From positions 1 to 33,330 of the forward strand of contig QQNC01000008.1 of the NCBI GenBank assembly GCA_003402695.1: a stretch of 33,330 nt of DNA. The letters run 5' to 3'. This DNA comes from Verrucomicrobiota bacterium. Its GTDB lineage: Bacteria > Verrucomicrobiota > Verrucomicrobiia > Opitutales > Opitutaceae. The notes under the pieces are model-generated. The model was not told the origin of the DNA and ran no database searches. It worked only from the letters and a program-made list of their open reading frames with translations. The position numbers and the translations under genes were made by a program. The number at the start of each line of letters is the position of its first letter. Within the stretch, counting starts at the first letter, position 1. Below, one piece after another: positions 10,034-30,836 of the stretch.

Positions 10034-11059
10034 TCAAAACGGCGAGCGGCTCATGCCCAGGCGGGTCAGGAGCCTGCGGACGGCGCCGGGGGTTTTGGGC
10101 CGGAGTCCAGCCGGGATCTGCCCGGCGAAGCCGCCTTGGACTGCGAGGCGGCCGACGCTGATGCCTTCGTAATTGCGGGCATTGAGCAGCTCGGCGGTGA
10201 ACAACGCCGCGGGCACCTGGTCGAGATGGCCCTCGAACGCGGCGGCGTGAAGGGGGGTGTCGCCGTTGTCGTTGCGGATCAGGAGGAGATCGGCTGTCAG
10301 CCGCTCCCGCGGAATCTGGGAGAGCTGGCCGGTCTCGGCGGCGGCGTGGATGACGGTGAAGCCGGTCTGGCTCGCGATCACGAGGTTGTCGTGGGTGAGC
10401 AGCCCGGCGGGAACCTGCCCGAGATGACCCGAGATGGCGGCGGCGTGGAGGACGGTGTCGCCCGCGGTGGTGGCCTCGCGGAGGGCGGCGGCGGTGAGCA
10501 GGGTCGGCGGCAGCTGGTTGAGATGGCCGTTGAAGGCGGCGACGTGCAGGACGGTTTCGCCGCCGAGGTTGCGCTCGAGCAGGTGGGCGGCGGTAAGGAA
10601 TCCGGCGGGCAGCCGGTCGAGTGTGCCGCTTTCCGCCGCCTCGTGCAGCAGGGTGTTGCCGAGATGGGTCCGCGACAGAAGGATGGCGGGGGTGACGAGC
10701 GCGGCGGGTAACTGGTCGAGGTGACCATTGGCGGCGGCGACATGGAAGACGGTGTACCCGGAATTGCTGCAGGTGCCGAGCAGCGGCGCCGTGAGCAGGG
10801 CCGGCGGCACCTCGTCGAGATGGCCGCCGAGGGCGGCGTGATGCAGCGGCGTGTAGCCGGAGTCATTGCGGAGCGAGAGGGTGTCCGCGGTCAGCAAGCC
10901 GGCGGGGACCAGACGCAGGCCGCCATATTTGGCGATGGCGTGGAGCGGGGTGTTGCCGGCGGCATTGCGGGCGACCAGCCGCTCGCGGGTGAGGACCTCG
11001 GGCGGAAGCTTCGGGAGCAGGCCCGAGCGGGAGGCCTCGTGCAGGTCGTAGGTTTCCAT
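10034..11059 (-). CDS. Ankyrin-type repeat solenoid protein
   Basis: 341 residues built almost entirely of ten back-to-back repeats, each exactly 33 residues, starting at residues 3, 36, 69, 102, 135, 168, 201, 234, 267 and 300. The consensus is roughly xTPLHxAAxxGHLDQVPxxLLTxxLL, then xxRNxxG. The TPLHxAAxxGH half is classical ankyrin. The second helix differs, with Q[VLI]PxxLLTxxLL replacing the usual VVKLLLEAGADVN. The first and last copies are degenerate and act as caps. There is no signal peptide or membrane segment, so it is probably cytosolic and protein-binding; the partner is unknown. It is divergent from two stand-alone receiver genes (about 115-base gap). Function is unassigned. 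Confidence 0.88.
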   Translation of the reverse strand: METYDLHEASRSGLLPKLPPEVLTRERLVARNAAGNTPLHAIAKYGGLRLVPAGLLTADTLSLRNDSGYTPLHHAALGGHLDEVPPALLTAPLLGTCSNSGYTVFHVAAANGHLDQLPAALVTPAILLSRTHLGNTLLHEAAESGTLDRLPAGFLTAAHLLERNLGGETVLHVAAFNGHLNQLPPTLLTAAALREATTAGDTVLHAAAISGHLGQVPAGLLTHDNLVIASQTGFTVIHAAAETGQLSQIPRERLTADLLLIRNDNGDTPLHAAAFEGHLDQVPAALFTAELLNARNYEGISVGRLAVQGGFAGQIPAGLRPKTPGAVRRLLTRLGMSRSPF

Positions 11060-12085: not shown

Positions 12086-15000
12086 CTAGCGCGAGGCTTT
12101 GAGCCGGGCGGCCAGATACGGTGCGGTTGGGCTGCGCTTCACGCGCAGCAGGCCGGCGAGCTCACCCTGGTAAAGCAGTTCTCCGCCGTCGGGACCGCCG
12201 ACCGGGCCGAGCTCAAGGAGGTAGTCCGCCTCGGCGAGCAGGTCGAGGTGGTGCTCGATGACGACCACGGTGTGACCCTGGTCCACGAGGGAATGGAGCA
12301 CGCGGATGAGCTTCTCGCAGTCGCTCAGGTGCAGGCCGATGGTCGGCTCCTCGAGGAGGTAGAGGTTGCGGGGCAGCGTGCCGCGGCTGCGCTCGCGATA
12401 GGTGGCGAGTCCGGCGGAGAGCTCGGTCACCAGCTTGAGCCGCTGCGCCTCGCCGCCGGAAAGCGTGGGCGAACTCTGGCCGAGCGTGAGGTAGCCGAGT
12501 CCACAATCGACCATGAGCTGGCAGACCTGGGAGAGCTGCGAGTGAAAATCAAAGAACTGCGCAGCCTCCTCGAACGTGAGCTGAAGGACGGCGCCGATGG
12601 TTTTGTTTTTCCACGTGAGGTCGTTGAGTTCGGGGCCGTAGCGCAGGCCGCGACAATCGTCACAGGGCAGATACGTGTCGGGCATGAACGCCATCTCGAG
12701 CTTGATGCGGCCGGCGCCCTCGCAGGTGGGGCAGCGTCCGCCGGAGACGTTGAAGGAAAAGCGCGAGGCGGTGTAGCCGCGGATCTTGGCCTCCGGGAGC
12801 GAGGCAAAGAACTGGCGGATGAGGTCGAAGATGCCGAGGTAGGTCGCGGGCGTGGAACGGGGGGTCTTGCCGATGGGCGCCTGGTCCACCTCGATGACGG
12901 ACTTGAAGCCGCTCGCGCCGGTGAGGTCGGTGAAGGGCGGGGCAGTGGTCCGGTCATCGGCCAGACGATCGGAGGCGAAGCCGGTGGCCTTGACGAACTC
13001 GCGGCCGGTGAGGCGGGCCTTCCGGGCCTTGATTGCGTGGGTGACGGCGGGGTGGAGCAGGTCGCGGAAGAGGGTGGATTTGCCGGCGCCGCTGGGTCCG
13101 GCGGCCATGATCAGCCGGCCGTGCGGGAGACGAAGATCAAAGTGCTTGAGGTTGCGGAAGTGCGCGCCCTGCAGTTCGAGCCAGCCCGGAACGGAGGCTT
13201 CGTCCACCGGCCGGTAGGAGCCGCGCTGCGGATGCTTGAGGCCGGACTTGAGGAAGAGGCCGGTGAGGGATTTTTCGTTGCGGCGGATCTCGTCGGGCGT
13301 GCCGTTGGCGAGCAGTTCGCCGCCGTGGATACCGGCGGCGGGGCCGAGGTCGATGATGCGGTCGGCGCGGGCCATGAGTTCCTCGTCGTGCTCAACGACG
13401 AGCAGGGTGTTGCCCTTCGCGCGGAGGGCCTGGAGCGTGAGGATGAGCTGGTCGTTGTCGCGGGCGTGCAGGCCGATGCTGGGCTCGTCGAGCACGTAGA
13501 GTACGCCGGAGAGGTTGGAACCGAGCTGCGCCGCGAGCCGGATGCGCTGCGCCTCGCCGCCGGAAAGCGTCTCGGTGGGGCGGTCGAGCGAAAGATAGCC
13601 GAGGCCGACGTGGTCGAGAAACTTCAGGCGCTCCTCGATCTGGGGCACGATGTCCTGGGTGATGAGCTTGCCGCGTGCATCAAGCTCGAGGTTGCGCAGC
13701 TGGGTGAGAAGAAGAGACGGGGTGCTGGTGAGCAGCGCAGGCAGGGAGAGCGGAGGCTGTTTGCCCCGCTGATGCAGCTTCACGGCGCGACTGATGCGGT
13801 TGAGGCGTTCGCCGCGACACTCGGGGCAGGGCACGCCGGCTGCGGCCAGGTCTTCGCCGGGCTCGAGCCCGAGTTGGCGGAGGCGGTCGAGGTTGGCGTC
13901 ACCTTCGTCGTCGTCGGGCTCGAGCATCCACGGCAGGATGCGGCCGTGTCCGCGGCAGGTGGGGCACCAACCGCGCGGCGAGTTGAAGGAGAAATTTTTC
14001 GGCTCAAGCTCGGGGAAGGACTCGCCGGACTCGATATCGGTGCGCGTGGTGGAGAACCAGGACAATACCGCGCCGTCGGGGGTAAGGAGGAAGCACGCTC
14101 CTTTGCCGATGCGAAGGGCCGTCTCCAGGTCCGCGTTGGCAGTGGCCAGTGAGGAGAGGGCCGAGGTCAGTCCGGACTTCGTGGTGGCGGAGTCCTTGGT
14201 CGGGGCTTGTTTCTGACTTCTGGCGCCGGGCTTCTGACGCCTGGCCTTTAGGTCTGCCACCACGACTTCAACATCATGCTCTTTGTAGCGGTCGAGTTTT
14301 TGAAAGGCATCCACCCGGGTCAGCCGGCCGTCGGTGCGCATGAGTTCGTAGCCCTGGTTGGCGATCCACGTGGCGATGGGCTGGTGGTGACCCTTGCGGC
14401 CGCGGATGAGCGGGGCGCAGAGGTAAAGATGCTTGGCTTTCCGGGCCTTCGGGGTCGCGAGGATCTTCGCGAGGAGTTTTTTCAACGCACCCGGCGAAAG
14501 TGGGGTGACGGCCTTGTCGGTGTCGGGGTGATGCTGCACGCCGAGCCGCGCGTAGAGGAGGCGCAGGTATTGGGCGACCTCGGTGATGGTGGCGACGGTG
14601 GACTTGCGGGAACCGCGGGTGACGCGCTGCTCGATGGCGACGGTGGGCGGGATGCCGGTGAGCCGGTCCACGGCGGGGCGGGGCAGCTGCTCGACGAACT
14701 GGCGCGCGTAGGGCGACATGGACTCCATGAACCGCCGCTGGCCCTCGGCGAACACGATGTCGAAGGCGAGGGTGGACTTGCCGGAGCCGGAGACGCCCGT
14801 GACGACCGTGAGCTGACGGTGGGGAATCGTGAGCGAGAGGTTTTTGAGGTTATGCTCCCGCGCGCCGATGATGGTGAGGTCACCGGTGGCGAGGGCGAGC
14901 GGGGCCGAGGTTTCGTAGGCCGCAGCCTCCTCGGCGGCGAGGAGCACGAGGGCATCGTCCTCGGCGGTGGGCCGGCCGAGGGCGCCGCGGAGAAACGAGG

Positions 15001-17872
15001 CGGTGGCGGTGCTGGCGGTGGCGACTTTCTCGGGCGGACCCTCCGCGACGATCAGGCCGCCGCCAGCGCCGGCCTCGGGACCGATCTCGAGGATCCAGTC
15101 CGCGGACTTGAGCACGTCGAGGTTGTGCTCGATGACGATGACGCTGTGGCCCCGGTCCACGAGGGCCTGGAGAACACCGAGGAGGCGCTTGACGTCGTGG
15201 CGGTGCAGGCCGGTGGTGGGCTCGTCGAGGAGAAGCAGGGCCCCGGTGGAGCGGAGATCGGAGTTCGGAGATCGGAGATCGGGCGAACTCGAGACTTTAT
15301 TCTCCGAACTGGGCGCCGCGTAGCTGCCGAGATAACTGACGAGTTTCAGGCGCTGGGATTCGCCTCCGCTGAGGGTGTTGAGCGGCTGGCCCAGCGTGAG
15401 ATAGCCCAGGCCGACCGAGTCGAGACTCGCGAGGCGCGAACGGATGGAGGCGTGTTCGGCGAAGAGCGGGAGGGCGTCGGTGACGCTGGTGGCGAGGAGG
15501 TCGGCGACGGAGCGGCCGTTCCACTGGATGGCGAGGACCTCGGGCTTGAAGCGCTGGGCTTCGCAGACGGGGCAGGGCACAAAGACGTCGGAGAGAAACT
15601 GCATTTCGACGCGCTCGTAGCCAAGACCCAGGCAATGATCGCAGCGGCCGTCGCCGCTGTTGAAGGAGAAACTTGACGCGCTGAAGCCGGCGGCGCGCGC
15701 GGCGGGCGTTTGCGCGTAGAGCTCGCGGATGAGGTCCCACGCCTCGGTATAGAGCGCGGGATTGGAGCGTGGGGTGCGGGAGAGGGGCGACTGGTCGACG
15801 AGGACGACCGCGCCAAACGCGGCATCGCTCTTGATGGACTCGATGGCGGCCGCGTCCTCGGCGAGCTGCAGGCGCTGGGCCAGCAGGCCCTGGTAGATGA
15901 CGTTGTCGAGCAGGGTGGACTTGCCGGAGCCGGAGACGCCGCTGAGGCACACGAAGCGGTTCAACGGCAGGCGGAAGGAGAGGCCCGAAAGATTGTGCTT
16001 TGTGGCGCGCGTGAAATGGATCGACGGGTGCTTGGCGCGAACGGGGCGGCGGGCTGACGGTGTGGCGAGCGATTCGCGGCCGGAGAAGTAGGCGCCGGTG
16101 ATGCTGGCGGGCGAGTCGGTCAGGCCGGCGACGGTGCCTTGGAAGACGATGTGGCCGCCGCGTCCGCCGGGCTCGGGGCCGACCTCGATGACATGGTCGG
16201 CGGCGCGAATCATGGCCTCGTCGTGCTCGACCACGACGACGGTGTTCCCGGCGTCGGTGAGCGAGCGGATGATGCCGATGAGGCGGTTGATGTCGCGCGG
16301 ATGCAGGCCGACGCTCGGCTCATCGAGCACAAACAGTGTGTCCACGAGCGAGGTGCCGAGGCAGCTGGTGAGGTTGACGCGCTGGACCTCGCCGCCGGAG
16401 AGCGTCTTGGACTGGCGGTCGAGCGTCAGGTAGCCGAGGCCGACCTGCGCGAGGTAGCGGAGACGCGTGACGATGGAGTCGTAGGCGAGTTCGGACTGGT
16501 GGTCGCGGCTGGCGGGCCGGGCGTCGGCCAAGGCGGCGAGGAGGTCGGACACCGGCTGTTGATAAAGCTGTGGGAGGGTGTGGCCGCGCCATTTCCAGCA
16601 CAGCGCCTCGGGCTGCAGCCGCTGGCCGCCGCAGGCGGGGCAGGGGTTGTAGGTGCGGTAGCGCGCGAGGAAGACCCGCACGTGCATCTTGTAGGTGTTC
16701 TTCTCGAGCCAGCGGAAAAAGCCCTTGATGCCGTACCAGTATTTCGGCCAGGGCTTGCCCTGCTCCTCCCCGTAGCCGGGCTCGCCATCGATGATGTAGC
16801 CCTGCTGCGCCGGGGTCAGCGCGGCGAACGGGACGTCGGTCGGGATTTTTTTCTTCTTCGTGAAAACGAGGAGATCCTTCTTCGACTCGCCGTAGATTTC
16901 GCTTTCCCAGCACTTGATCGCGCCGTCATCAATCGAGAGGGACTGGTCGGGGATGGTCAGGCGGTAGTCGATGTCGATGACGCGGCCGAAACCGCGGCAT
17001 GTCGGGCACGCGCCGAGCGGGGAGTTGAAGGAGAAGAGCGGGGGCGTCGCGGCGCGGAAGGTGCGGCCGGTCGCGGGCGAGTGGAGTCCGCGGGAGAAAT
17101 GGCCGAAGCCGGCGAGGGGGTTGGCGGAGAAAATGCGGACCTGCCCCTGGCCAAAGTGGAACGCGGTCTCGACGGCCTCGATGAAGCGGGGTTTTTTGGC
17201 CGGTGCGACGTCGAGGCGGTCCTGCGCGACGACGAGATGATCGGCGACCGCAAGGGGCTTGGGTTCGGTGAGCAGGTCCTCCACGCGATGGACGGCGAGC
17301 GTGCCCGTTGCGTCTGGAACCAGGACGCGGACATAGGACTGACCCTTGAGGTTGGTCAGGATCTCCGTCCAGGTCAGGTTGGCGGGCTTGGGCACCTGGA
17401 AGCCGATGATCACGGTGCGGCCGGGGTGGGAGCCGTGGACTTTCTCCCAGATGGACTGCGGCGTGTCGTCCACGACCTCCTCGCCGGTCGCGGGATCGAA
17501 GCACCGGGCGGCGTGGCTGAACCAGACTTTGAAGAAATCCGTCAGCTCGGTCATCGTGCCGACGGTCGAGCGCGAGGTCTTGACCGTGTTGGTCTGCTCG
17601 ATGGCGATGGACGGGCGGATATTCTCGATCGAGTCGACCTTGGGCTTGTCGAGCAGGTCGAGGAACTGGCGCGTGTAGGCGCTGAAGGTCTCGACGTAGC
17701 GCCGCTGGCCCTCGGCATGGAGCGTGTCGAAAACGAGGGAGGACTTGCCCGCGCCGCTCAGTCCGGTGACGACGACATATTGCCCGAGCGGCAGGTCGAG
17801 GTCGAAGCCCTTGAGGTTGTTCTGGCGGACGCCACGGAGGCGGATGGATTCAAGGGAGACGGCTTTGGGCAC
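12086..17872 (-). CDS. uvrA: Double-length excinuclease ABC subunit A (tandem UvrA fusion)
   Basis: About 1928 residues, twice the usual 940. Two complete UvrA units are fused, giving four ABC ATPase sites. Walker A motifs are GLSGAGKSS (near 37), GVSGSGKST (near 645), GVSGSGKST (near 1025) and GPSGAGKST (near 1590). Signatures are LSGGEVQR, LSGGESQR, LSGGEAQR and LSGGEAQR. CxxC zinc pairs recur (CPTCRGFGR, CPACGGQR, CPVCEAQR, CPTCRGHGR). UvrA scans DNA for damage and loads UvrB in nucleotide excision repair. Chlamydial UvrA is similarly doubled. The start is uncertain: the GTG at 17872 gives a family-like N-terminus (PKAVSLESIRLRGV), and a TTG at 17911 is the alternative; no in-frame ATG exists nearby. 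The gene follows lexA by about 83 bases on the same strand. Two heptamer arrays interrupt it in frame. Confidence 0.93.
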   Translation of the reverse strand: MPKAVSLESIRLRGVRQNNLKGFDLDLPLGQYVVVTGLSGAGKSSLVFDTLHAEGQRRYVETFSAYTRQFLDLLDKPKVDSIENIRPSIAIEQTNTVKTSRSTVGTMTELTDFFKVWFSHAARCFDPATGEEVVDDTPQSIWEKVHGSHPGRTVIIGFQVPKPANLTWTEILTNLKGQSYVRVLVPDATGTLAVHRVEDLLTEPKPLAVADHLVVAQDRLDVAPAKKPRFIEAVETAFHFGQGQVRIFSANPLAGFGHFSRGLHSPATGRTFRAATPPLFSFNSPLGACPTCRGFGRVIDIDYRLTIPDQSLSIDDGAIKCWESEIYGESKKDLLVFTKKKKIPTDVPFAALTPAQQGYIIDGEPGYGEEQGKPWPKYWYGIKGFFRWLEKNTYKMHVRVFLARYRTYNPCPACGGQRLQPEALCWKWRGHTLPQLYQQPVSDLLAALADARPASRDHQSELAYDSIVTRLRYLAQVGLGYLTLDRQSKTLSGGEVQRVNLTSCLGTSLVDTLFVLDEPSVGLHPRDINRLIGIIRSLTDAGNTVVVVEHDEAMIRAADHVIEVGPEPGGRGGHIVFQGTVAGLTDSPASITGAYFSGRESLATPSARRPVRAKHPSIHFTRATKHNLSGLSFRLPLNRFVCLSGVSGSGKSTLLDNVIYQGLLAQRLQLAEDAAAIESIKSDAAFGAVVLVDQSPLSRTPRSNPALYTEAWDLIRELYAQTPAARAAGFSASSFSFNSGDGRCDHCLGLGYERVEMQFLSDVFVPCPVCEAQRFKPEVLAIQWNGRSVADLLATSVTDALPLFAEHASIRSRLASLDSVGLGYLTLGQPLNTLSGGESQRLKLVSYLGSYAAPSSENKVSSSPDLRSPNSDLRSTGALLLLDEPTTGLHRHDVKRLLGVLQALVDRGHSVIVIEHNLDVLKSADWILEIGPEAGAGGGLIVAEGPPEKVATASTATASFLRGALGRPTAEDDALVLLAAEEAAAYETSAPLALATGDLTIIGAREHNLKNLSLTIPHRQLTVVTGVSGSGKSTLAFDIVFAEGQRRFMESMSPYARQFVEQLPRPAVDRLTGIPPTVAIEQRVTRGSRKSTVATITEVAQYLRLLYARLGVQHHPDTDKAVTPLSPGALKKLLAKILATPKARKAKHLYLCAPLIRGRKGHHQPIATWIANQGYELMRTDGRLTRVDAFQKLDRYKEHDVEVVVADLKARRQKPGARSQKQAPTKDSATTKSGLTSALSSLATANADLETALRIGKGACFLLTPDGAVLSWFSTTRTDIESGESFPELEPKNFSFNSPRGWCPTCRGHGRILPWMLEPDDDEGDANLDRLRQLGLEPGEDLAAAGVPCPECRGERLNRISRAVKLHQRGKQPPLSLPALLTSTPSLLLTQLRNLELDARGKLITQDIVPQIEERLKFLDHVGLGYLSLDRPTETLSGGEAQRIRLAAQLGSNLSGVLYVLDEPSIGLHARDNDQLILTLQALRAKGNTLLVVEHDEELMARADRIIDLGPAAGIHGGELLANGTPDEIRRNEKSLTGLFLKSGLKHPQRGSYRPVDEASVPGWLELQGAHFRNLKHFDLRLPHGRLIMAAGPSGAGKSTLFRDLLHPAVTHAIKARKARLTGREFVKATGFASDRLADDRTTAPPFTDLTGASGFKSVIEVDQAPIGKTPRSTPATYLGIFDLIRQFFASLPEAKIRGYTASRFSFNVSGGRCPTCEGAGRIKLEMAFMPDTYLPCDDCRGLRYGPELNDLTWKNKTIGAVLQLTFEEAAQFFDFHSQLSQVCQLMVDCGLGYLTLGQSSPTLSGGEAQRLKLVTELSAGLATYRERSRGTLPRNLYLLEEPTIGLHLSDCEKLIRVLHSLVDQGHTVVVIEHHLDLLAEADYLLELGPVGGPDGGELLYQGELAGLLRVKRSPTAPYLAARLKASR
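14204..14252 (-). repeat. In-frame heptamer array in second half of uvrA
   Basis: Plus-strand units TTCTGAC (14211), TTCTGGC, GCCGGGC, TTCTGAC and GCCTGGC run without gaps to 14245, flanked by more diverged units at 14204 and 14246. They encode a basic, Gln/Arg/Lys-rich segment (KARRQKPGARSQKQ) around residues 1210-1221, between conserved parts of the second UvrA unit. Confidence 0.75.
15252..15279 (-). repeat. In-frame heptamer array in first half of uvrA
   Basis: Plus-strand units CGGAGAT, CGGAGTT, CGGAGAT, CGGAGAT. They encode SPDLRSPNSDLRS-type sequence (about residues 865-874) placed between the signature LSGGESQR and the Walker B strand LLLLDEPTTGLH. An inverted partial copy (CTCCGAACT) lies at 15302-15310. 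Confidence 0.8.
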
Positions 17873-17955
17873 AGGAGGGGAAACGAATGCGTCAGTGCGG
17901 CGGAAACACAACTGGGGCGCGAGGATTTCTCAACGGCCGTCCGGCCGGGGCGGAT

Positions 17956-18561
17956 TCAAGCCACTTGCCGGCGGATCACGCCCACGACGACGCCCTGGGA
18001 CTCGAGTTGGGCCGGGAAGATGTCGGCGTAGCGCGGATTGGCGGCGCGGAGCAGCACCCGCCCCTTCTCCTTCAGGAAAGTCTTCAGGGTCGTGGTGGTC
18101 TCGTCCACCAGGGCGGCAATGATGTCGCCCGGTTTCGGCTCCCGGCGGACGAGGGCGATCAGGTCACCGTCGAGGATGTGGGCGCCGGTCATGGAGTCAC
18201 CCGTGACCCGCAGAAACCAGAAATAGTCCTTCCGGGCGGAGCGCACGCCGAAGAGCGCGGGGTCGATGGTGATCGTCTCCTCCGGCGTCTGCTCCTGCAT
18301 GGCCGGAAAGCCGGCGGGGATCGAACCGAAGACGGGGGCGGAGAAGAGATGGCCCTGCACCTGCACGGCTTTGAAGCCCCACTTGCCGTCGGCGAGCTTG
18401 TCCAGCTGGCTCTTGCGGGCGAGCGACTGGAGATGCTTGAGGGCGGTCGGCTGGCTGCACTCGAACGTGCGGGCAATTTCCCGCGTCGAGGGCGCGACCC
18501 CGTGGTGGCGCTGATAGTCGTTTACGAAATCCAGGACGGCCTCTTGTCGTTCGGTGAGCAT
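17956..18561 (-). CDS. lexA: LexA SOS repressor / self-cleaving S24 protease
   Basis: 201 residues. The N-terminal winged helix-turn-helix (MLTERQEAVLDFVNDY, then STREIARTFECSQPTALKHL, residues 25-44) binds DNA. The C-terminal S24 peptidase has the cleavage bond Ala83-Gly84 in IPAGFP, catalytic Ser123 in VTGDSMTGAHILDGD, and Lys160 in TTTTLKTFL. All residues needed for RecA-stimulated self-cleavage are present. LexA represses DNA-repair genes until DNA damage. It is followed on the same strand by uvrA, consistent with a lexA-uvrA SOS operon. Two adjacent 14-bp palindromes (18565-18593) lie immediately upstream of its ATG, which suggests strong autoregulation. The reading-head helix ECSQPTALKHL differs clearly from the E. 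coli sequence, in line with a different operator. Confidence 0.96.
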   Translation of the reverse strand: MLTERQEAVLDFVNDYQRHHGVAPSTREIARTFECSQPTALKHLQSLARKSQLDKLADGKWGFKAVQVQGHLFSAPVFGSIPAGFPAMQEQTPEETITIDPALFGVRSARKDYFWFLRVTGDSMTGAHILDGDLIALVRREPKPGDIIAALVDETTTTLKTFLKEKGRVLLRAANPRYADIFPAQLESQGVVVGVIRRQVA

Positions 18562-18564
18562 AGG

Positions 18565-18578
18565 GTATCGGTCGATAG
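18565..18578. promoter_or_regulatory. Candidate LexA operator, proximal site
   Basis: GTATC-GGTC-GATAG on the plus strand: a 5-N4-5 imperfect palindrome (one mismatch to the distal site) starting 4 bases upstream of the lexA ATG. Binding here would block initiation or early elongation. Assignment is inferred from position, symmetry and adjacency to a second copy. Confidence 0.7.
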
Positions 18579-18579
18579 C

Positions 18580-18593
18580 CTATCAGCTGATAG
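18580..18593. promoter_or_regulatory. Candidate LexA operator, distal site (perfect palindrome)
   Basis: CTATC-AGCT-GATAG, a perfect 14-bp palindrome one base away from the proximal site. It has the same length and spacing (5-N4-5) as the published Verrucomicrobium spinosum LexA site TGTTC-N4-GAACA, but a different half-site sequence. Confidence 0.75.
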
Positions 18594-18645
18594 TGGCGGG
18601 CGGCCGGTTCAAGCTCAAATCGGCGACCACTCAGCGCGATCTCCG

Positions 18646-18755: not shown

Positions 18756-18775
18756 GGGCGTCAAGCCCGACCTAC
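18756..18775. repeat. Half copy of the GTAGGTCGGGC hairpin repeat
   Basis: On the minus strand GTAGGTCGGGC TTGAC GCCC overlaps the end of the DeoR-type gene and supplies its TAG stop codon. It is one arm of the element seen complete at 26866-26919, with a CGGGC/GCCCG stem of its own. Confidence 0.7.
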
Positions 18776-19536
18776 GTGGCCAGCGTGAGCTTGGCGCCGG
18801 CGGTGGAGATGGCGCGGGTGACGGCGGGGCTGGGGCGGGTGTTGGTCACGATGGTGAAGCGCGGTTCAAACGGCGTGGTCAGGCTGAGGGCCTTGCGGCC
18901 GAACTTGGAATTATCGAGGGCGAAGATGCTGCGGGTGGCGGCGCCGATCATCTTGCGCTGCGCGGCGACGATGAGGGCGTTGTGGTTCCAGACGCCGTTC
19001 TCGGTGATGCCGGCGCCGCCGAGGATGGCGAGGTCGGCGTGCACCTGGTTGAAAAAGTCCTCGCACATCGGGCCGAGCACGACACCGAGCCGGCTGTAGA
19101 TGCTGCCGCCGGTGACAATGGTTTCCACGCTGCCGACCTCGCTGAAGAGGCTGGCGACGGGGAGGGAGTTGGTGATGACCTGCAGGCGCTTCTCGGCGAG
19201 GAGCCGGGCGACGGCGTAGGTGGTGCTGCCGCCGTCGAGGATCACCGTCATGCCCGGCTGCACCTGGGCGGCAACGAGGCTGGCGATGGCGAATTTTTCG
19301 TCGGGGTGGCGCTGGTTGCGGGCGATGAAATCGTATTCCTGCGCCACGACATCGGTCTCGATCAGCGAAGCGCCGCCGTGGTGGCGGCGCACGACGCCAC
19401 GCTCCTCGAGCTGGTCGAGGGCGCGCCGCACGGTGGAGAGCGAGCCGCCGAACTTCGCCGCGAGGGTGTGCAGGTCGGCGTATTGGTGGGCGCGGATATA
19501 CCGCTCGATGGAATCGGTGCGCTGCTTGCTGGTCAT
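18772..19536 (-). CDS. DeoR/GlpR-family transcriptional regulator
   Basis: 254 residues. The N-terminal winged helix-turn-helix (KQRTDSIERYIRAHQYADLHTLAAKF, then LSTVRRALDQLEERGVVRRHHGGAS) is typical of DeoR regulators that bind operators of sugar-catabolic genes. The C-terminal DeoRC sugar-phosphate-sensing domain carries VILDGGSTTYAVARLL, VITNSLPVA and FALDNSKFGRKAL. The DNS.FG motif near the end corresponds to the effector pocket. The effector is unknown. The ATG overlaps the TGA of the upstream glycosyltransferase gene (ATGA), so they are translationally coupled, which is an unusual partner for a DeoR regulator. Its own TAG stop is provided by a dispersed repeat. Confidence 0.9.
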   Translation of the reverse strand: MTSKQRTDSIERYIRAHQYADLHTLAAKFGGSLSTVRRALDQLEERGVVRRHHGGASLIETDVVAQEYDFIARNQRHPDEKFAIASLVAAQVQPGMTVILDGGSTTYAVARLLAEKRLQVITNSLPVASLFSEVGSVETIVTGGSIYSRLGVVLGPMCEDFFNQVHADLAILGGAGITENGVWNHNALIVAAQRKMIGAATRSIFALDNSKFGRKALSLTTPFEPRFTIVTNTRPSPAVTRAISTAGAKLTLAT

Positions 19537-28952: not shown

Positions 28953-30836
28953 TTAATTCGGTTTATTGATCGCAGCCGCGACGGTGGCGGCGGAAATGTC
29001 ACCGAGCGGGCTGCCGCCGGCCGGCGGACAGCCGGGCGGCTGAAGCATCGTGACCGGGGCGCGGAAGACCGGGCCGGTGCGGATCGGATTGGTCGGACCG
29101 AAGAGGGCGAAGAGCGGCACGCCGAGGGCATTGGCGAGATGCATGCCCCCGGTGTCGTTCGTGACGAGGAGCCGGCAGGCACGGAGGCGGGCGCAGTACT
29201 CGGGCAGGGTGGTGCGGCCGGCGAGGTTCTCGACGCGTTCACCGAAGCCGGCGGCCACGGCGTTCGTGATCGGGGTGTCGTTGGCCGTGCCGAAGAGAAC
29301 AAAGCGCCCGTTGGGCAGCAGTTCGATGAGGGAGCGCCAGTGGGAGACGGGCCAGCGTTTGGCGGGGTTGTTCTCCGAGCCACAAATGAGCCCAATCGGA
29401 GCAGCGGCGAGGGGCGTGGGGCGAGGGGCGTGGGGTGAGCGGTCCGGGGCGACGATCAGGCCGAAGTGGCGGAGGAAGTTTTCCCAGAGCTCGAGCTGGT
29501 GATGGGCACGCTCGTCAAAACCCGCGGGCACGACGTAGGCGTGCGAGAGCAGCGGGCGGCTTTTGCCGGGACGCCGGAGCCCAAACCGCTGGCGGCAGCC
29601 GGACAGCCAAGCCTCGAGGTCGCCGCGGAGGGAATTTGTGAAAAGCAGCCAGGTGTCGGGATAGGCGCGCCGCAGCCGCCAGAAATGCGCGAAATAACCC
29701 AGACCTTGCGGCGGCAAGGCGTGAAGGTGGTCGGCGACGCCCCAGGATTCGAGCAGCGGCAGGAACTGTGCCTTGGCAAGAAGGGTGAGTTCGGCGTCGG
29801 GCCGCGACGCGCGCAGGGCGCGGAGCAGCGGCAGCGCCATTACCACGTCGCCGAGCCAGTTGGGCAGGCGGATGAACAGGCGGGTCCGGCGGGGCAGGGC
29901 GGGGAGTCCGCGCAGGCGCTGGTCGGCGTCGAGCCAGTTGCGTTTGCTCTCCAGGTGGAAGCGCCGGGCCGGGACGTCCTGATGGCGCCAGCGGTCATGC
30001 GCCCAGAGCCAGGAGGCGCAGAGCTGGTCATCGCCGCGGAGCAGATCCTCGAGCCAGCGGTTGAGCGCGACGGTGATGCCCTCGGCGGTGCGGTCGGGGG
30101 CGATGAGGGCGGATTCAAATTCGACCCGCCAGAAGCCGGTGCGACGCGGATAAAACGAGCGAACCTCGGCGCCGTACTTGGCTGCGAGCAAACCCGGGAG
30201 TTCGGTCGTGGAGCAGACGCGGCCAAAGAACGTCGTCAGCACGCCCTGCATGCCGGCGTTCTGGTCCATGAGGATGCCGATGCAGCCCTGGCCCCTCAGG
30301 ATCTTGAGCGCCTCGGCGAAACCCTCCTTGCGCGACAGCAGACGCATGCCGAAGCGCTCGCGGGTGGACTGCACGAACGCGTTGGCGGCGGCGTTTTCGA
30401 GCGGGCGGAAAATGATGCCGAACTCCGGCAGCGGGACGGGACTGAGCAGCTTGAGCCAGGTCTGGCTCTCCCAGAGGGCGAGGTGCAACGTGGCGAACAC
30501 GACCGGGCGCGGCCGGGCGGAGAGTTCGCGGACAAGGGCGTCGGCGGAGGGAGCGAGGCGGGCGATGATGCGGATGCGGGCTTCGCTGAGGTACGGCGCG
30601 GCGAGGGACAGCAGGCCGGTTTCAACCAACTGCCGGGAGCCGGCGCGGGCGAGGTCCCGGTGCCAGGCGGGCGGGCGCTCGGGAAACGCATGGGCGAGAT
30701 TCGAGTGCGTGAGCCGGCGGCGTCGGCCGGCGATCCAGTAGAGCGACTCACCGAATCCCGCGGACAATCCTTGCAGCAACCACTCGGGGAGGTGGGCCAG
30801 GGTCCAGCCGAGGGTTTGGAGCAGCAATTTGAACAC
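28953..30836 (-). CDS. Fusion: lipid A acyltransferase (LpxL/HtrB-like) plus GT9 heptosyltransferase-like domain
   Basis: 627 residues from a GTG at 30836 (MFKLLLQTLGWTLAHLPEWL). Residues about 1-300 form an LpxL/HtrB-type acyltransferase with the H-x4-E catalytic motif HLALWE at 118-123, RPLENAAANAFV, and MDQNAGMQGVLTTFFG. Residues about 325-627 form a glycosyltransferase family 9 domain: LFIRLPNWLGDVVMALPLLRAL, GSENNPAKRWPVSHW, and TNDTGGMHLANALG (near 558), with FALFGPTNP. The first part would acylate lipid A at the inner membrane and the second would add heptose to the inner core. The order of domains is continuous, with no frameshift. A heptamer array (29404-29438) encodes a Pro-rich link (PHAPRPTP) between the two GT9 lobes. 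A second GT9 gene is divergent next door. Confidence 0.9.
   Translation of the reverse strand: MFKLLLQTLGWTLAHLPEWLLQGLSAGFGESLYWIAGRRRRLTHSNLAHAFPERPPAWHRDLARAGSRQLVETGLLSLAAPYLSEARIRIIARLAPSADALVRELSARPRPVVFATLHLALWESQTWLKLLSPVPLPEFGIIFRPLENAAANAFVQSTRERFGMRLLSRKEGFAEALKILRGQGCIGILMDQNAGMQGVLTTFFGRVCSTTELPGLLAAKYGAEVRSFYPRRTGFWRVEFESALIAPDRTAEGITVALNRWLEDLLRGDDQLCASWLWAHDRWRHQDVPARRFHLESKRNWLDADQRLRGLPALPRRTRLFIRLPNWLGDVVMALPLLRALRASRPDAELTLLAKAQFLPLLESWGVADHLHALPPQGLGYFAHFWRLRRAYPDTWLLFTNSLRGDLEAWLSGCRQRFGLRRPGKSRPLLSHAYVVPAGFDERAHHQLELWENFLRHFGLIVAPDRSPHAPRPTPLAAAPIGLICGSENNPAKRWPVSHWRSLIELLPNGRFVLFGTANDTPITNAVAAGFGERVENLAGRTTLPEYCARLRACRLLVTNDTGGMHLANALGVPLFALFGPTNPIRTGPVFRAPVTMLQPPGCPPAGGSPLGDISAATVAAAINKPN
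29404..29438 (-). repeat. In-frame heptamer array in the GT9 domain of the fusion gene
   Basis: Plus-strand units GCGGCGA, GGGGCGT, GGGGCGA, GGGGCGT, GGGGTGA. They encode SPHAPRPTPLA-type sequence (about residues 467-478), between the N- and C-terminal lobes of the GT-B fold. Confidence 0.8.

Follow-up and report, generated by a model that had tools for sequence, protein, structure and literature searches.

Among the closest described counterparts of the locus analysed here is the LexA system of Verrucomicrobia, whose motif is reportedly TGTTC-N4-GAACA, and tandem sites are said to occur in the lexA promoters of this phylum. In one study, LexA motifs are described as extremely stable across broad groups; nevertheless, motifs differ between bacterial groups and 17 LexA binding motifs had been reported by 2021 (PMC8565304). 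The same text models motif change as duplication-divergence-loss-reuptake (PMC8565304). How LexA motifs change has thus been modelled, yet it is hard to test. Our literature search found no paper joining Opitutaceae and LexA, and CTATC-N4-GATAG was unreported in titles and abstract openings.

Predicted operators before lexA

The window, by which we mean the whole 33,330-nucleotide stretch of Opitutaceae DNA that was analysed, contains a lexA gene on the minus strand (17956..18561, with the ATG at 18561). Its 201-aa product combines an HTH and an S24 peptidase domain and matched the profiles PF01726 (LexA_DNA_bind, 42.7 bits), PF00717 (S24 peptidase, 71.8 bits) and TIGR00498 (120.9 bits, above the cut-off of 110.95). 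The closest named LexA record, with 98% identity, belongs to an uncultured Opitutae bacterium (metagenome). The roles of the Ala-Gly cleavage site and the Ser/Lys dyad are known from the LexA family, and in a 12-row LexA alignment the cleavage site Ala83-Gly84 and the Ser123/Lys160 dyad were invariant.

Two 14-bp sites before this gene are very probably LexA operators. The predicted distal operator (18580..18593, forward-strand letters CTATCAGCTGATAG) is the perfect palindrome CTATC-AGCT-GATAG, in which all five arm pairs match and the centre is palindromic too, at -32 to -19 from the ATG. The predicted proximal operator (18565..18578, forward-strand letters GTATCGGTCGATAG) reads CTATC-GACC-GATAC on the lexA strand, with 4 of 5 arm pairs matching, at -17 to -4; neither was assigned a strand. 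Both have 5-N4-5 symmetry, lie 1 base apart and together span -4 to -32 of lexA, as a sequence-only reading of this DNA had correctly given in coordinates and letters. A CTTG at 18610..18613 (minus strand, around -52 from the ATG) may serve as a -35 element; 24 of the 25 lexA promoters in the turn-deletion clade described below have it between -50 and -56, and the remaining one has it at -72. A consensus scan found no sigma-70 promoter or terminator near lexA. The proximal operator stops 3 nt short of the ATG (18562-18564). If the operators do cover the promoter, a Shine-Dalgarno sequence would hardly fit into this gap, and translation of lexA may start from a leaderless message.

Lone 5-N4-5 palindromes are frequent (53 perfect ones in the window), so a single palindrome is little evidence. 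Tandem pairs with near-identical half-sites 15 bp apart were found twice in the window, namely the lexA pair and a G+C-rich case at 29014, and the same scan gave any pair in 1 of 30 mononucleotide shuffles. An exact search for STATCNNNNGATAG found no second copy in the window, in agreement with the sequence-only reading, and none elsewhere in the window's own genome (2.8 Mb, 92.31% complete, 330 contigs).

We judge the sites to be real chiefly because the tandem pattern is conserved across the genus, which is stronger than these chance statistics. The pattern TATCNNNNGAN{4,5}TATCNNNNGA was present in 9 of 12 genus genomes, the own genome (G000) included, at 12 distinct places: 10 lexA promoters, 1 imuA promoter (in G003, where imuA sits detached from lexA) and 1 off-target place. 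The reversed-pattern control gave 0 places in the same 12 genomes. The expectation that the motif would also precede lexA in relatives was therefore borne out. Two genomes, G005 and G009, had no tandem site and, in two LexA searches, no LexA either. G011 lacked the tandem CTATC site as well; its LexA has the helix SQQG and its operator is TTGTC, and the genus thus includes both types. One site in G009, CTTTCAACTGATAG (L041), was considered as a relic operator and rejected, because neither lexA nor imuA could be recognised next to it.

Half-sites and recognition helices across the family

The recognition-helix codons S36-L44 (SQPTALKHL) lie at 18430..18456 on the minus strand. In an AlphaFold model of the window LexA (mean pLDDT 77.6; 93 and 90 for the blocks 31-40 and 41-50), the recognition helix covers residues 37-49. 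This model matched the LexA structures 3k2z (Z 17.3, rmsd 10.8 over 182 residues) and 3jsp (Z 16.2, rmsd 10.8 over 184 residues); 3jsp and 3jso, which was also matched, are LexA-DNA complexes. In E. coli LexA, the residues at the corresponding positions make base contacts. The turn before the helix has 1 residue fewer than in TGTTC-type LexA. Thermotoga LexA aligns gap-free in the HTH turn; short turns therefore also occur outside the clade described below.

The comparison set comprised 113 non-redundant lexA genes together with their upstream DNA; most come from Opitutaceae and some from other Verrucomicrobia. One homologue search gave 65 loci, of which 40 entered the set, the others being copies of genomes already included, fragments, or the distant loci L141-L148; the fragmentary G031 was likewise excluded. 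In 79 of the 113 genes a perfect 5-N4-5 palindrome lay no more than 60 bp from the start codon, against a mean of 5.4 and a maximum of 15 in 100 mononucleotide shuffles. Gaps of 2 and 6 also scored high (73 and 75), as is to be expected where one and the same palindrome extends towards its centre or beyond its arms. Since the palindromes stop 3 nt short of the ATG, they might instead fold within an RNA leader, as a hairpin or an attenuator, and bind no protein. This is extremely improbable, considering that the same geometry recurs in so many lexA promoters and that the N4 gap stays fixed while the arms change with the LexA helix.

A tree was built from 111 lexA rows (L138 and L139 left off) by a quick method with the helix columns left out; its branches carry SH-aLRT support only, and the program warns of long branches. 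Half-sites were called for 81 of the 111 rows, and the 30 without a call, among them L106-L110, L112 and L114, were excluded from the counts. For nine rows the call was made by hand (G032, G143, L131, G012, G010, G085a, G095a, L130 and G111), including the imperfect sites of G010 and G012, and two were removed (L133 and L031). TGTTC was the commonest class (38 of 81), followed by CTATC (12), CACTC (8), TGCTC and TGTCC (6 each), TTGTC (4) and TGTAC (2), while CATTC, TGCAC, TGGTC, TGATC and CGTCC occurred once each; CGTCC comes from an imperfect site (G095a) and may be TGTCC. Counting this imperfect case there are 12 half-sites in total, 11 of them within the window's family. TGCAC is the sole class outside it (L115, titled Chthoniobacteraceae), and CATTC and TGGTC were placed via the presumed G142 and G122. 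Half-sites changed at least 16 times on the tree, compared with a shuffled mean of 40.9.

In LexA with an HTH turn 1 residue shorter, 25 of 25 half-sites do not start with TG, whereas 55 of 56 do so in LexA without the deletion, the exception being G095a, where TG stands in the opposite arm. A single origin accounts for the deletion clade (SH-aLRT 96), so this tie (25/25 vs 1/56) amounts to one evolutionary event. Within the clade, residue 38 is P in all 12 LexA with CTATC and Q in all 4 with TTGTC, and where it is A the half-site is CACTC in 8 of 9 cases and CATTC in the ninth. In terms of helices, SQPT is paired with CTATC, SQQ with TTGTC and SQAT, in most cases, with CACTC; the helices that follow the one-residue-longer turn are paired with TGTTC, TGCTC, TGTCC and others. 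Another genus, that of G028 (13 genomes), fits the same pairing. In 8 of its genomes a single CACTCANNTGAGTG occurs, 8/8 at lexA and 8/8 together with SQAT, and the control matched 4 places, spread over 3 genomes. In G091, whose helix is SQPT, lexA is preceded by CTATC, and this genome lacks CACTCANNTGAGTG.

Outside the deletion clade, LexA with H37 have C as the fourth base of the half-site (5/5) and LexA with S37 have TGC or TGA (5/5), each from two separate clades. On the other hand, a strict code is contradicted by P37, which occurs with TGTTC (16), TGTCC (2) and TGTAC (2), and by Q37, which is also found with TGCTC (2); P37 and Q37 thus occur with the classes of H37 and S37 too. Independent-pair tests on single residues had only 1-2 pairs and gave no significance. 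Near-identical SPFGVKR helices are accompanied by TGTTC in G082 and by TGTCC in G110 and G132; because of this mixture and the TGTTC site at recA in G110, the LexA of G110 probably reads both. Two LexA with different sites were found in one genome in G012 (TTGTC and TGTCC) and in G093 (TGTCC and TGTTC).

Several further promoters deserve mention. The operator of G133 (L268) is TGATC-N4-GATCA and that of G111 (L267) is the half-changed TGCTC-N4-GATCA, both with the helix stretch SSNAARS; this pair is perhaps an operator caught in transition. L106-L110, L112 and L114, mostly with SQSTVIGHL helices, showed none of the called palindrome classes up to 60 bp from lexA. In most of them the upstream DNA resembles the last part of a conserved coding region, and lexA may therefore lie inside an operon there. 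Distant Verrucomicrobia lexA genes (L134, L135, L137 and L139) are preceded by ATACTGTA...TACAGTAT-like palindromes, a further motif class in the phylum, which resemble the E. coli LexA box CTGT-N8-ACAG.

Taken together, a shift of LexA DNA specificity from TGTTC to CTATC is well supported by the comparison. The sequence-only reading had placed such a shift within the phylum: the shared geometry and a half-site that tracks the helix agree with it, but the change is not phylum-deep, since TGTTC remains the commonest class and the window's own genus is mixed.

Extent of the regulon

The same reading had expected the motif at recA and other SOS promoters, and here it failed. In the 200 bp upstream of recA (118 bp in G006), neither a CTATC nor a TGTTC palindrome was found in any of the 12 genus genomes, nor was a 4-of-5 palindrome with TC..GA; one genome has an unrelated perfect palindrome there. 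As a positive control, five other family members (G035, G074, G084, G095 and G110) carry TGTTCANNTGAACA at 358-392 bp upstream of the Walker motif of recA. Any TGTTCANNTGAACA occurred in 29 of 100 family genomes, and one place per genome was examined, so that at least 5 have it before recA. The ratio of 5 in 29 suggests that genomes without a recA site are probably frequent across the family, this genus being no special case; recA control can thus be detected but is not general. Exact TGTTCANNTGAACA had 0 matches in the four genus genomes sampled (G000, G002, G008 and G009). G084 (L215), listed as 100% complete, has a perfect TGTTC-type operator before recA, yet no LexA_DNA_bind match.

Degenerate sites that escape exact patterns could still belong to a broader LexA regulon. 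The two-mismatch pattern CTATCANNTGATAG shows a small excess in the 12 genus genomes (284 places vs 248 in the reversed control), and the own genome is 92% complete and split into 330 contigs. However, the own genome has 14 such places vs 13 in the control, recA upstream regions lack even the relaxed palindromes in 12/12 genomes, and the tandem pattern went off-target only once in the genus. We therefore consider a broader regulon unlikely. An exact single CTATC-N4-GATAG was matched in 28 of 100 family genomes, mostly at control level. G019 showed 8 exact matches vs 1 in the control, an excess without explanation; three of these overlap or cluster, and the genome gave no LexA match. With exact, two-mismatch and tandem patterns, nothing convincing was found beyond lexA and, in G003, imuA.

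Across 150 family genomes, ImuA lies directly behind the LexA gene in 49 of 66 cases (same strand, gaps of 27-471 bp), which implies that a usual role of LexA in the family is control of a lexA-imuA-imuB-dnaE2 cassette. G006 carries this cassette in two copies, and the copy scanned gave ImuA (44.6 of 150 bits, below the cut-off), a Y-family polymerase (PF00817) and the error-prone DNA polymerase profile NF004225 (above the cut-off). ImuA was not found in any of the 7 genus genomes tested (G000, G001, G002, G004, G005, G008 and G009), the sole match in G000 being recA itself. A RecA search that caught ImuA in G006 and G003 showed none in G007, G010 and G011.

The lexA gene could accordingly be a relic, lingering with its operator before loss after the error-prone cassette has gone. 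The 7/7 genomes without ImuA, the own one included, and the two genus genomes without any LexA speak for such a course. Against it, both operators are kept, and among G000, G002 and G004, the subclade where lexA precedes uvrA, lexA has a dN/dS of 0.032-0.055 and is under purifying selection. A relic is thus rather unlikely, and we prefer a LexA that still acts on its own promoter.

Since the motif is missing at recA and elsewhere in the own genome, the CTATC pair is best read as a changed autoregulatory operator and not as evidence of a rewired SOS regulon; SOS-wide rewiring is not supported. With no exact site at another SOS gene in the own genome, a working SOS switch would rest on lexA alone. 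The CACTC-type sites, 8/8 at lexA, together with recA genes lacking sites, likewise make these LexA look mainly autoregulatory. LexA regulons vary between bacteria, so the missing recA control limits the SOS claim and not the LexA assignment.

Gene order and comparison with known systems

In the window, lexA is followed on the same strand, after 44 bp without a terminator-like site, by uvrA (12086..17911, minus strand), a 1941-aa open frame of the tandem-duplicated type. Two UvrA-interaction stretches and ATP-binding stretches are spread along the full length of this frame, as in the tandem-duplicated form. Directly upstream of lexA lies a gene for a DeoR-family regulator (18772..19536, minus strand). 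An ankyrin-repeat protein gene (10034-11059) is located between uvrA and enolase, and the same order was seen in G002 and G004.

The deoR gene adjoins uvrA in all 12 genus genomes; lexA intervenes only in G000, G002 and G004 and not in the other 9. The simplest account is that lexA and its operators moved into the deoR-uvrA gap in an ancestor of these three. The deoR gene being next to the palindromes, they might belong to its product or to another regulator. This is very unlikely, because the deoR-uvrA gap has no site in all 9 genomes where lexA is elsewhere or missing, and the site accompanies lexA wherever it is located and changes with the LexA helix. Given the short gap without a terminator-like site, read-through from lexA into uvrA is plausible. 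Behind lexA, a sequence resembling (by eye) the upstream region of relatives' uvrA persists, and uvrA need not depend on this read-through.

It is most likely that the window LexA represses itself and, via read-through, uvrA. The explanation as a whole, autoregulatory operators of a CTATC-specific LexA with uvrA reached by read-through, appears quite probable, while binding, repression, cleavage and co-transcription with uvrA are deduced from sequence. LexA specificity would have changed from the family's commonest TGTTC to CTATC, with the 5-N4-5 spacing and the inner TC..GA retained. One LexA dimer would sit on each site, the pair covering -32 to -4 behind the CTTG at -52, and the bound dimers would keep RNA polymerase from the -10 region and the start of lexA. 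After DNA damage, the RecA filament would induce self-cleavage at Ala83-Gly84 and the promoter would open. With lexA between deoR and uvrA, read-through would make uvrA damage-inducible too.

A wider account, which is more tentative and could well be wrong, is that Opitutaceae LexA is a fast-evolving specificity switch. Loss of the turn residue may have freed the outer half-site bases (TG to CT, TT or CA), after which residue 38 would set the outer triplet, and residue 37 would tune the inner bases in proteins with the longer turn. With recA outside the regulon, lexA and its operators might have moved before uvrA as a minimal damage response, instead of new operators arising at repair genes.

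The 12 half-sites, 11 of them in one family, are paired with sequenced helices, some of which are few residues apart. Such matched helix-operator sets are suited to helix-swap binding tests of repressor-operator co-change, and they include a LexA whose regulon appears to have shrunk to a single operon.

Compared with the TGTTC-type LexA of Verrucomicrobia, the window LexA shares the 5-N4-5 geometry, the inner TC..GA and the position of the operator just before lexA. It differs in its CTATC half-site, in an HTH turn 1 residue shorter and in that recA is no target in its genus. In contrast to the lexA-imuA-imuB-dnaE2 cassette, no ImuA was found in the own genome, and uvrA comes after lexA. Genomes with two differently targeted LexA, such as G012 and G093, resemble the duplication-divergence-loss-reuptake model (PMC8565304). 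Here, however, the diverged LexA has not regained recA, and lexA itself adjoins uvrA instead of new operators having appeared at uvrA.
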